Below, piece after piece: positions 5,638 to 64,000 of a stretch of 64,000 bases of DNA. This DNA is from Elusimicrobia bacterium RIFOXYA12_FULL_51_18. Its GTDB lineage: Bacteria > Elusimicrobiota > Elusimicrobia > Elusimicrobiales > UBA9959. Within the stretch, counting starts at the first letter, position 1, and each line of letters begins with the position of its first letter. The notes below the pieces were generated by a model, which was not told where the DNA came from, made no database searches, and worked only from the letters and a program-made list of their open reading frames with translations. Position numbers and translations under genes: made by a program. The stretch lies in the NCBI GenBank assembly GCA_001800245.1, contig MGVA01000028.1, positions 118,452-182,451 on the forward strand, read 5' to 3'.

Positions 5638-5709
5638 CTAGTGTAGTGCGTTTCACATATCTTTACATTTGAAGGCTCAGATTTGAGCCGGATGCGAGGC
5701 GCGACGAGC
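5638..5709 (+). repeat. Partial copy of repeat family A (CTAGTGTAGTGCG...)
   Basis: 72 bp matching 42773-42844 with two mismatches by eye; contains hairpin GGCTCA-GATT-TGAGCC (5674-5689). Confidence 0.85.
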
Positions 5710-6730: not shown

Positions 6731-8164
6731 TTGATGGTTTGCCGGTTTAGCCTGTTGAATGTCTGGAAACCCATCCTTATCGCGTCGCTTTGCTGCGCCG
6801 CTTTTTGGCCCACTCTGCGTGTCGGATTCATGCTCGATGACCCGTTCCTGCTCCGTGCGGTCGAACGCGCCCCGGCTCTGAGCCTCAAGGGCCTGCGGTC
6901 CGATTTTACCGATAATGTTTACAAAGAGCCGGGTACGTTCTACTACCGCCCTCTTTTATCGGTAATGGTCCGGCTGGAATACTTTTTCTGGGGCCGGAAT
7001 CCGGCTGGTTATCATGTCGTTTCTCTGTTGTTCCACATAGCAAACGCCATACTTGTCTTTTCCCTATTGACATTGCTTGAGTTCGAGCCACATGTCGCTC
7101 TCTTTACCGCCTGCCTCTTCGCGGTGAACCCGGTCATCGTAGACGATCTATTGGCCGCCACGGGGGGGGAGTCAATGGCTAATTTTTTCCTCCTTACCGC
7201 GCTTATCCTGTATTTAAATAAAAAATGCGCCTGGGCCTGGCTGGTGTCTTTCCCCGCGCTGTTCGCGAAAGAGAGCAATGTCATGCTTCCGGCGCTCTTG
7301 CTCCTATGCTTTGTCTATCAGGGGCGTATTCGAAAGGAGTACTGGAAAGTTCTGTCGCTGCTGCCGGTGTGCGGTTTTTTTCTTGTCATGCGTCATTGCT
7401 ATGTCGCTTCTCCGGAGGATATCGCGGTGTTTCCAATGCTGAGGTTTATGCTGGAGGCTTTTCCGCGCATCGTTTTTTATTATCTGCGGGTCTTGTTGTT
7501 TCCCTGGGAACTTGAAACCTGGCCGCCTGTTTTTCCTTTGTCGCCTTTCTGGTTCCTTATTCTTCCCGGCGGCGCGGCTTTTATCGCCGGTTTGTTCATG
7601 CTGCCGGTCCGCAGGCGGATCACGGCGTTTTGCGTGGGCTGGTTTTTTCTGCTGATGGCGCCGCGGATCCCCGCCATTCTGCATAATCAGGTGCTTATGG
7701 ATAAGTGGATCTTTATGGCGTCGCCGGCGGTCTTTGCGCTGCTGCTTGCTCTTCTTGTGAAGATCTGGGATCACCCCTCGCCTTATCTGCGAGCTCTCCC
7801 CCGGGGCGCGGTTGCGGTAATAATCATTTTTTGGGCGTCCCTGGCGCAGGCCAACGTCAAATTAAGAGGCTCTGATGAGAAAAATTATCGGTGGACGATT
7901 CGCAACGGCCCCCGGAGTTTCGCGAGTTATCGTCTGGGCGTGATCTTATTGCAGGAGGGCCGGGCGGAGGAGGCGGTCCAGGTCTTAGAGCCTCTGCCCG
8001 GGCTATACCCGGACCAGCCGGATCACCAGAACGCATACGCTATGGCCTTGTGGCATAGCGGCCGACACAAAGAAGCGCGGATACTCATGGAGGCTCTGGA
8101 AAAGAGCTATCCCGGATCAGCGGCGATAAAAGAAAACGCCGCAAGAATTCGCGCCGGACGTTAA
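6731..8164 (+). CDS. Multi-spanning membrane protein with C-terminal TPR-like repeats (TMTC/glycosyltransferase-like)
   Basis: N-terminal LDDPFLLRAV and many TM helices; C-terminal LGVILLQEGRAEEAVQVLEPL...NAYAMALWHSGRHKEARILMEAL. Confidence 0.65.
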   Translation: MMVCRFSLLNVWKPILIASLCCAAFWPTLRVGFMLDDPFLLRAVERAPALSLKGLRSDFTDNVYKEPGTFYYRPLLSVMVRLEYFFWGRNPAGYHVVSLLFHIANAILVFSLLTLLEFEPHVALFTACLFAVNPVIVDDLLAATGGESMANFFLLTALILYLNKKCAWAWLVSFPALFAKESNVMLPALLLLCFVYQGRIRKEYWKVLSLLPVCGFFLVMRHCYVASPEDIAVFPMLRFMLEAFPRIVFYYLRVLLFPWELETWPPVFPLSPFWFLILPGGAAFIAGLFMLPVRRRITAFCVGWFFLLMAPRIPAILHNQVLMDKWIFMASPAVFALLLALLVKIWDHPSPYLRALPRGAVAVIIIFWASLAQANVKLRGSDEKNYRWTIRNGPRSFASYRLGVILLQEGRAEEAVQVLEPLPGLYPDQPDHQNAYAMALWHSGRHKEARILMEALEKSYPGSAAIKENAARIRAGR

Positions 8165-8213
8165 CCCGAATCCCGCAGTTCAACAGTTCCGCGAAGGGAA
8201 AAATTCAACTGAA
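8161..8213 (+). repeat. Truncated copy of TTAA-ended repeat family C
   Basis: TTAACCCGAATCCCGCAGTTCAAC (8161-8184) is the reverse complement of 58507-58530 with one mismatch; TCCGCGAAGGGAAAAATTCAACTGAA (8188-8213) matches the other side of the same element. Confidence 0.8.
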
Positions 8214-8246
8214 ATAATTTTCCGAGTTCCGAACGGGGAATCCGGG

Positions 8247-42772: not shown

Positions 42773-43044
42773 CTAGTGTAGTGCGTCTCACATATCTTTA
42801 CATTTGAAGGCTCAGATTTGAGCCGGATGCGAGGCGTGACGAGCGAGCATACCCGTAGGTATGTGAGCGAGAAGCAACGAAGCAGCCGGCCAAAGATGAG
42901 CCTCCCCCAGGGGGCTGGCCGCTTTTGGGCTGCAACTGCGTCACGAATCGCTTACATAGCCCAGCTATGCCGCGCTCTTCGTTCCTTGTTTCGCTCCAAA
43001 CCCGGCCAGTCAAAAGTCAAGATATGTGAGACGCACTACACTAG
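42773..43044. repeat. 272-bp MITE-like inverted-repeat element (family A)
   Basis: CTAGTGTAGTGCGTCTCACATATCTT (42773-42798) and its exact reverse complement (43019-43044); internal hairpins; no convincing ORF. Confidence 0.92.
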
Positions 43045-43133
43045 GGCCTTTTGATTTTATGAGCCGCACAACCGGGGCTTTTTGGTATTATTTGTTTTTA
43101 TTGTCGTTTATTTCCGGTTATATCGTTTATGAC

Positions 43134-58275: not shown

Positions 58276-58530
58276 TTAACCTGAAAAATTCAGTTGAATT
58301 TTTCCCTTCGCGGAGCTCAGGTGCGCTTCGCGCGGCATACACCCTAGAAAACCTGGCGCGTATTGCGCTTGGTTTTCGCCCCGCTGCTGCGGGGAATCCC
58401 GGCCGTCTGATGCGCATAGCGCTTGTTACGGCATGACCATAGGCCCTTATACGGCACCTACGCAGGTATTGCTTTTTTGTTCACAGGATCTTCCAATGGA
58501 AACCAAGTTGAACTGCCGGATTCGGGTTAA
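58276..58530 (-). repeat. 255-bp TTAA-ended repeat element (family C)
   Basis: Ends TTAACCTGAA.../...ATTCGGGTTAA; 65-bp end matches 63724-63788 (reverse complement) with one mismatch; further matches along the element. Confidence 0.88.
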
Positions 58531-59579
58531 CGCAAGGCTACCGAAAGTTTTTCGCTTTCAAGGAGAGCCGCCTCAAGCACTAGGCCGTGTGATACGTTCT
58601 GGTTCAGGAACCTGCGGTAGTCCAGCAGTTTTCTTACCAGCGCGGCGTGTTCGGAGGCCTTTTTCCCGGGCGGCTGGGCCAGCCACTTTTTCCTGGCGGA
58701 TACGAGCAGCATGTCCAGCATGATTTTGGCCTCTTCGCGCGCCATGTAGGGCTCGCGGGGGAGGCTGGAAACCAGCTTGAATATCTTTTGGGAGTCGGCT
58801 GCCGTAATGCCGGCAAGCCGGTCACGGACTTCCTTTATATCGCCGGCTTTTTTTACCGACCCTCCGGATAATTCGCTCAGGGCGGAAGCTTCGTCAAGCG
58901 TCATTCCGCCGCGCTCAAGCAGCTCCTCTACGGCGGCGGGGGAAAGGCGGTTGAATTCTATGGCGCAGCTCCGAGAAATAATGGTGGGAAGCAGCAGGTT
59001 CCTCTTCGCGGCCACCAGTATGAAAATAGTGCCCGGCGGCGGCTCTTCAAGTATCTTCAACATGGCGTTCTGGGAGTTTGTGTTGAGCGTGTGGGCGTCG
59101 TTTATGATAAAGACTTTCCAAGAGGAAAGGATGGGCTTTTGATAGACATAGCGCGTGAATTCCCTGACCGTGTCTATGCGAAGCGTCTTCTGTTTCTGGG
59201 AGTTCTCCTCCATCAGCAGGGCCTGGAATTCGGCGTCAATTACGCGCACATCGGGGTGTACGCTTTTGTCTATTTGAGAACAGGAAACGCATCTGTCGCA
59301 GGCGTCTCCGGAGATGTGTGGAATGCTTGATGAGGGATGCGGAGCGGGAGCGGGAACTGCAAAAAGACCGATCTCTTCTTTCAACTCTTGTTTTTTGTCC
59401 CGTAAAGTTTCATCCGGTCCCGTACAGTTAAGGGCTTTGGCGAATTCCTTGGCCGCCAGGAATTTGCCTATACCTTCGGGGCCGTAGAAAAGCAGCGCCG
59501 GTGGAACGCGCCCGCCGGCGGCCAGGGCGTTGAGCTTATTTATCGTGCCTTCGTGGCCAAGAATGCTTTTAAATGACAT
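58527..59579 (-). CDS. holB: DNA polymerase III delta' subunit-like ATPase
   Basis: LLFYGPEGIGKFLAAKEFAKALNC, Zn cysteines CDRCVSCSQID, SWKVFIINDAHTLNTNSQNAMLKILEEPPPGTIFIL. Confidence 0.92.
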   Translation of the reverse strand: MSFKSILGHEGTINKLNALAAGGRVPPALLFYGPEGIGKFLAAKEFAKALNCTGPDETLRDKKQELKEEIGLFAVPAPAPHPSSSIPHISGDACDRCVSCSQIDKSVHPDVRVIDAEFQALLMEENSQKQKTLRIDTVREFTRYVYQKPILSSWKVFIINDAHTLNTNSQNAMLKILEEPPPGTIFILVAAKRNLLLPTIISRSCAIEFNRLSPAAVEELLERGGMTLDEASALSELSGGSVKKAGDIKEVRDRLAGITAADSQKIFKLVSSLPREPYMAREEAKIMLDMLLVSARKKWLAQPPGKKASEHAALVRKLLDYRRFLNQNVSHGLVLEAALLESEKLSVALR

Positions 59580-63500: not shown

Positions 63501-63598
63501 AGAACAACGGTTTCCGCAAGCTGAGCCAGGAATATGAACAGGCTAGAATTGTTATAGAACAACTGAAAGAAAAATTAAAATCGTCTCATAGCAAGTAG
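60569..63598 (+). CDS. Long coiled-coil protein (1009 aa)
   Basis: Almost entirely charged heptad-like sequence with K/E/L/Q bias; no recognised catalytic domain. Confidence 0.85.
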   Translation: MKDQFDESSLNEQAINDVETARLALRWALDKIRALQEETLRAKQNLQEKSAQTSFLEGQLKGKNSELEKILHSHEEEIKSKQDSLEYQFRSKLERLSEREKELEDKISKQEEIHKQKENKLLDDYQRKSDELRARWAEVEAELWKLRQEQMTKQAEFEKLYAAKLDDERRKSAAETEAARAGFERTYADRLSDLEKRESSIKDELKKQEAVLKWAKDSFQRETDEREKNLKQKDLDIEKKLMEKNQEIEDYKVKAGLLQKQISDLPEAVRKRDEDLNRYKQAMESLECVIRTLESEKRSFQADSEQKISRLNEKLEAEKNRYREMEAEIPKRLKIAIEHERGRLAEKLSETETGYKEDLRKRAEEIEFLEKNLKIFEENGRTFQTERDALAHKVELLQTQYGIRQDEFTFREKQLQSEYDVRLKVEIEKHTSALRNEIDTAQRIYEDNLRIKVEEIAHLRRELEGAVTEKMALQERTADLRRAADAVKEKSENDILAMRLQLKADFEKQLSEDLGEAFRRSAAEKQKMSVAFDAQLNDAHFETIHKDDELQKLRTVIVRLEEEKKFAIAEERQRGKVELQVQASSFADTVKIYEDKILQLSKAAEKLKIEREEAILFERERLERLYSEKEKDLDERLLRKEQEMSRLKNDLDERLAHKDQETARLREELIKVDNEKTNAGTLFANESELHNGRIRVLNEKLLAKDADAQRKLEEAVKRESERAEDLASKKNQEISALQSAKESQEDAYRKSLEDFRAKLSEAVGKLETLRKTADERGGRLEALQMELAQTQKFYSEENTALSARLAGKEKDWRDIKTEYEKLKAVSEETAKGVQRQGNDYLLRLKNSEEQRVSKDRILETMKREMEFWKSEAAKKDEEMNSLKGNYSKELEMERKDGRLSYEKAVAESSAREKAATRELMALKDALNQREMEADRFKSQAEELEKMFSRLKEQNRRQAESNSASAAGFEERIAHLEAENNGFRKLSQEYEQARIVIEQLKEKLKSSHSK

Positions 63599-63615
63599 CC
63601 TTGCTCGGTGATCTG

Positions 63616-63788
63616 GCCCGGATCCTGCAGTTCAAGCGGATCTTTATCGTAATGGCCGCCGCAAAAAATGCAATACCTGCGCAGGCGCCGTATCAGGGCC
63701 TATGGCCGTCAGACGGCCAGGGGGTATGCCGCGCGAAGCGCACCTGAGCTCCGCGAAGGGGAAAATTCAACTGAATTTTTCAGGTTAA
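63616..63788 (+). repeat. Internally deleted copy of TTAA-ended repeat family C
   Basis: CCCGGATCCTGCAGTTCAA...AATACCTGCGCAGGCGCCGTATCAGGGCCTATGG...GTATGCCGCGCGAAGCGCACCTGAGCTCCGCGAAGGGGAAAATTCAACTGAATTTTTCAGGTTAA aligns with reverse complement of 58276-58530. Confidence 0.85.
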
Positions 63789-63861: not shown

Positions 63862-64000
63862 CTAGATCAGCTCGAGCTTGCACTCAGGATCGTCGCAGTC
63901 GGTCTGTCCGGAGGAGAGTGTGAAGGTCAGCGTATATGTGCCATACCTGGTCGCCGGAGCCGGGACTGCGTTCCGCCTGGCTGTGATGGCCGCGGTGGTT
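63862..64000 (-). CDS. C-terminal end of a CDS running off the window edge
   Basis: Minus-strand translation TTAAITARRNAVPAPATRYGTYTLTFTLSSGQTDCDDPECKLELI*. Confidence 0.65.
   Translation of the reverse strand, partial: TTAAITARRNAVPAPATRYGTYTLTFTLSSGQTDCDDPECKLELI

Follow-up and report, generated by a model that had tools for sequence, protein, structure and literature searches.

The repeat at positions 58276-58530 of the window, a 64,000-nucleotide stretch of a contig of Elusimicrobia bacterium RIFOXYA12_FULL_51_18, is very probably a non-autonomous MITE that is moved in trans, most likely by an IS1380-family DDE transposase, and that inserts at YTAR sites with a 4-bp duplication. Its copies are dispersed through the source genome, their ends are imperfect inverted repeats, the 4-bp duplications were verified, relatives carry IS1380 elements with the same ends, and the fold of the repeat is conserved. 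These observations agree with a TTAA-targeting MITE, one of the readings that an earlier note on this DNA had put forward. That the IS1380 transposase is the mover, and the reason why the fold would be retained, are inferred. Current mobility in the source genome is unproven, and the transposase was not found there.

All three related copies that the earlier note had described in the window are present, and their end sequences were verified. The coordinates given for the complete copy held, and the bounds of the other two were refined to those in Table 1. The left ends of the two larger copies are identical at 68/70 nt. The complete copy lies between genes for a CDP-alcohol phosphatidyltransferase and a DNA polymerase III delta'-like (holB) protein (Pfam), and the holB-like gene (58527-59579, minus strand) has its stop codon at 58527-58529, within the terminal TTAA. 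The TTAA of the truncated copy contains the stop codon (8162-8164) of a plus-strand gene at 6731-8164; the neighbours of this copy encode a TPR protein and a methyltransferase (Pfam). Both of these stop-codon overlaps had been pointed out before, and both were verified. The internally deleted copy is flanked by a gene ending at 63598 and an open frame on the minus strand whose stop is at 63862-63864; its neighbour is a protein of 1009 residues that weakly matches a coiled coil (Pfam). Rfam covariance models, run against the window at the gathering threshold, found two tRNAs alone and gave no match for the repeat. The window also holds a second candidate MITE at 42773-43045 (272 bp, with 48-nt inverted ends CTAGTGTAGTGCGTCTCACATATCTT) and a partial copy of it at 5638-5709.

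Table 1. Positions in the window of the three copies and of two features of the complete copy
Feature	Position	Strand	Details
Complete copy, including both TTAA duplications	58276..58530	+	TTAA 58276-58279; element 58280-58526; TTAA 58527-58530
Internally deleted copy, reversed	63613..63788	-	Left end 63784; TTAA duplication 63785-63788; degenerate right-end flank CTGG 63613-63616
Truncated copy	8161..8214	-	Left-end interior joined to the right end (TTAA 8161-8164, then CCCGAATCCCGCAGTTCAA)
Helix H1, left end	58283..58304	+	GAAAAATTC-AGTT-GAATTTTTC; 100% paired in 31 aligned copies; double-sided changes at 5/9 pairs
Central hairpin module(s)	58401..58472	+	GCCGTCTGATGCGCATAGCGC..TACGGC, inserted between GAATCC and TGC-T-run

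Copies in the source genome (69 contigs, 2.75 Mb) were located by left-end and right-end patterns, allowing up to 3 mismatches, and the matches were then paired. Each pattern matched 64 times and the reversed control not at all; a repeat family far above chance is confirmed. The earlier note had made its proposal depend on further copies elsewhere in the genome, and at least 85 copies or fragments were found, 43 of them two-ended. The two-ended copies span 93-296 bp and carry no transposase gene, in keeping with the size and dispersal of a MITE. Their length classes (~179, 225, 248 and 292-296 bp) vary in the number of central hairpin modules, of which copies other than the complete one in the window have 0, 1, 2 or more, and internal deletions occur too. 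The most similar pairs of copies are 97-99% identical, and copy interiors coincide with the ends of many contigs of the source genome. When 84,980 species genomes were scanned by pattern, 45 stretches matched, of which 44 came from records with Elusimicrobia or Elusimicrobiota in the title and one from a record called just 'bacterium'; among 61 relatives, 28 had matches, all of them from the source genome's own family. Searching for empty sites with the joined flanks of copies gave no match among the sequences compared, which included no close strain.

The central module (GCCGTCTGATGCGCATAGCGC..TACGGCATGGCCATAGGCC), whose inner stems covary around an ATA loop, also occurs outside the transposon: many genomes of the family carry it as a REP-like repeat of its own, in part tandem (L036, L037, L043 and L050; G000:C18:67025-67260, C55:50346-50493 and C22:27076-27212), and at L043 and L050 it lies between ribosomal protein genes. 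At another locus, L130 4906-6505 (G000:C15:11312-12908), two inverted copies of the repeat enclose a gene of ~1056 bp and have TTAA at their outer ends, forming a possible composite unit.

The element reads CCTGAA...GGATTCGGG between 4-bp target duplications of the YTAR type, and its generalised ends are CCYGAA...TTCRGG. That the ends are imperfect inverted repeats (left, CCTGAAAAATTCAGTTGAA; right, read inward, CCCGAATCCTGCAGTTCAA) was borne out, both sharing a CC(T/C)GAA and CAGTT core at ~12-13/17 positions. The flanking 4 bp were identical in 30/43 two-ended copies (permutation p = 2e-5), indicating a duplication of constant length; they differed in the remaining 13, which counts against a MITE. 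The identical pairs were TTAA/TTAA (22), CTAA/CTAA (6), CTAT/CTAT (1) and ATAA/ATAA (1). In five related genomes the flanks were identical in 34/54 cases, with TTAG, CTAG and TTAT pairs among them. Because rare target variants match on both sides of one copy, we conclude that the duplications are real. TTAA, by which the family had first been characterised, is therefore its commonest flank but not a strict one; the duplication type is YTAR, and even in the window the right end of the internally deleted copy is flanked by CTGG (plus strand). A 2-bp TA duplication of the IS630 type was abandoned on seeing the CTAT/CTAT and ATAA/ATAA pairs.

Two further structures with a related left end were seen. 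At L152 (G000:C33:10670), the minimal palindrome CTAA-CCTGAAAAATTCAGTTGAATTTTTCAGG-TTAA corresponds to a lone left end, self-folded and flanked by YTAA. A sister element in JAHJSU (isolate OS_PC_MetaG.mb.28; L201, L206, L209 and L216) has the same palindromic left end, a different interior with repeats like AAGGATAAAGGATGAGGGATAAAGG, and a right end ...CAACTGCAATTTTCGGG.

Position relative to genes was counted with hexamer-based ORF calls. Of the two-ended copies, 41 had a gene on each side: 26 lay between tandem, 11 between convergent and 4 between divergent genes. The placement between convergent genes that the earlier note gave for all copies thus holds for the three in the window but for just 11/41 genome-wide. 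Because convergent genes put 3' ends on both sides, the window copies are incapable of testing orientation. Throughout the source genome, the right end pointed toward a gene 3' end in 46/61 cases (p = 9e-5), the left end was unbiased (29/61), and tandem pairs favoured one orientation by 20:6; of the flanks of intergenic YTAR sites in the window, 44% are 3' ends. In five relatives, the right end pointed toward a 3' end in 27/48 cases and tandem pairs stood at 18:12, neither of which is significant. Compared directly, the source genome and the relatives differed in right-end bias with p = 0.04 and in tandem pairs with p = 0.25. What had been described as a constant orientation to the preceding gene is therefore a bias in the source genome, neither constant there nor significant in the relatives. 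Stop codons overlapped 12/85 copies versus 8/79 intergenic YTAR sites of the window, about what target composition predicts; the element touches gene ends mainly because the TTAA/CTAA target often includes a stop codon.

Tentatively, the orientation bias may reflect selection against polarity, a suggestion that adds to the MITE reading and does not replace it. The left-to-right strand would end in a terminator-like hairpin and T-run, and copies reading in this way between co-directional genes would be lost. Consistent with this, 35/43 source-genome copies have a run of at least six T on the left-to-right strand and none on the other, and the relatives, in which the tandem pairs are more even, mostly have no T-run. 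Short gaps hold half of the favoured tandem copies versus 1/6 of the disfavoured ones. However, neither the gap difference (p = 0.2) nor the difference in tandem pairs between source genome and relatives is significant, matches in a terminator scan scarcely exceed shuffles, and a replication-strand effect may be the cause of the bias instead. Promoter scans of the copies gave no signal clearly beyond shuffles.

The conservation of an RNA-like multi-helix fold is real. For a copy of 187 nt, the folding energy is -95 kcal/mol (z -9.1) on the left-to-right strand and -84.5 kcal/mol (z -8.1) on the right-to-left strand. In an alignment of 31 copies drawn from several species, pairing in the local helices reaches 91.5%, and double-sided compensatory changes number 139 against a shuffle mean of 52, with slid structures nowhere near; the best helices are H1 and H4, the latter with 8/13 pairs covarying. 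Pairs were counted on the local structure, and RNAalifold favoured a competing long-range pairing around H5. Further pair types, by one covariation measure, were not in excess over shuffles in these 31 copies. Covariation alone is no proof of selection on RNA, because template switching at quasi-palindromes also makes compensatory changes.

Copy-private changes in the source genome numbered 18 in 84 stem columns, 10 of them disrupting a pair, versus 31 in 94 unpaired columns; this fits a constraint lost after insertion. On these small numbers, the fold seems to belong to the mobile lineage and not to each resident copy. We consider it unlikely that the conserved fold is itself part of mobility, with ends of the IS1380/piggyBac type read as folded single strands or together with RNA; if this were true, fold and terminal repeat would both be under selection in the mobile lineage.

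It is very unlikely that the repeat is a domesticated 3'-UTR element, with copies kept by the host in fixed orientation at gene 3' ends as terminators or mRNA stabilisers. Such a role would accommodate the right-end bias, the strong fold (z -8 to -9) and copy L026, in which a hairpin followed by a T-run resembles a terminator. Against it, the left end is unbiased, the relatives show no significant bias, transcripts arriving from the favoured 3' end run on the strand opposite to that of the T-run, the overlap with stop codons is close to what target composition gives, and more than half of the private stem changes break pairs. With no Y1 found either, the 3'-UTR, termination or REP-like role that the earlier note had offered beside the MITE is not supported.

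The MITE reading draws its candidate enzyme from the relatives, in which IS1380-family transposases (NF033539, E 5.5e-76; PF13701) are bordered by MITE-like terminal repeats and YTAR flanks. Ends of the form CCTGAAAA..CAGTT border IS1380 transposases in genomes G024 (terminal repeat CCTGAAAACTTCAGTTG), G002 and G022 (both CCTGAAAAATGCAGTT), and G252 and G192 (similar ends). A left-end variant in the source genome, CCTGAAAAATGCAGTTGCA, is identical in its first 16 bases to the IS ends of G002 and G022, and both ends of the MITE are found on IS1380 elements of G119 and G002. The G119 element is a complete IS of 1,709 bp, flanked by CTAG at each end, whose 462-residue frame is intact; the copy in G002, which is of the same genus as the source genome, has kept both ends, and its frame is broken. 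The similarity between MITE and IS1380 elements is limited to the ends, the interiors being unrelated. No match to DDE_Tnp_1, Y1_Tnp (PF01797) or DDE_Tnp_1_4 (PF13701) was obtained in the source genome, and an IS1380 protein query found none there; the assembly, 90% complete, is interrupted at repeats. A 4.75-kb 'autonomous' candidate on contig C33 turned out to be two unrelated fragments around housekeeping genes, and open frames on the right-to-left strand of the repeat, whose frame varies between variants, were judged by eye to be due to chance.

The IS5 and IS701 groups also make 4-bp YTAR duplications, and an enzyme from such a family could be the mover if the likeness to IS1380 ends were convergent; we regard this as highly improbable, since PF13546 (IS701) was absent from 41 genomes of the family and CCYGAA...TTCRGG ends occurred at 0/30 PF01609 loci examined, whereas IS1380 loci did have such ends. 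Searches for IS701, DDE_Tnp_1 or Y1 as the partner yielded none. An integron attC, which would also keep a constant orientation behind genes, was dropped in view of the verified duplications and the chromosomal dispersal.

We propose that a DDE transposase of the IS1380 family, provided in trans, would recognise the MITE ends and that insertion at YTAR sites, with TTAA preferred, would duplicate 4 bp. Copies would pile up between genes because intragenic insertions are lost, and some insertions would retain the host stop within the duplication because YTAR often includes the TAA or TAG with which a gene ends. The multi-helix fold would be retained in the mobile lineage, where it perhaps aids transposition or limits damage on transcription.

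Although related Elusimicrobiota IS1380 insertion sequences share their terminal repeats and YTAR flanks with the MITE, the repeat is 0.1-0.3 kb long. PiggyBac, treated as a distant eukaryotic relative of IS1380 (PMC10140906), targets TTAA and occasionally CTAA and TTAG (PMC10813416). In the Bacillus cereus group, the bcr1-bcr18 repeats are also intergenic and MITE-like, some with conserved secondary structure, and lie frequently in UTRs or between operon genes (PMC3446304); they belong to another phylum, and the likeness drawn here is one of description. MITEPye1 of Paracoccus yeei (PMC11578231) is likewise small, has terminal repeats as well as direct repeats, matches an IS family at its ends and has RNA stem-loop potential, but it is assigned to IS1182 and has 1-3 copies per chromosome, versus ~85 here. 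REP/BIME elements are similarly multi-copy, palindromic and extragenic, and the size and spread of the central module recall theirs; the repeat as a whole differs in having terminal repeats and 4-bp duplications, in being far longer and in the absence of Y1 (PF01797) from the source genome. Passages of PMC11578231, PMC4133298 and PMC9208149, an incomplete coverage of the literature, mention no IS1380-attributed MITE. MITEs with ends matching an IS family are already known as a kind, and we claim no priority.

In a phylum with few cultured members, these results would link an abundant repeat to one particular transposase family, related to piggyBac, and the copies account for many contig breaks in the source genome. 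They also advise caution, in that the stop-codon overlap of TTAA-targeting elements is not to be taken as regulation. The strongly covarying fold of this MITE provides a test case for asking which of the two, host or transposon, is served by folds of this kind.
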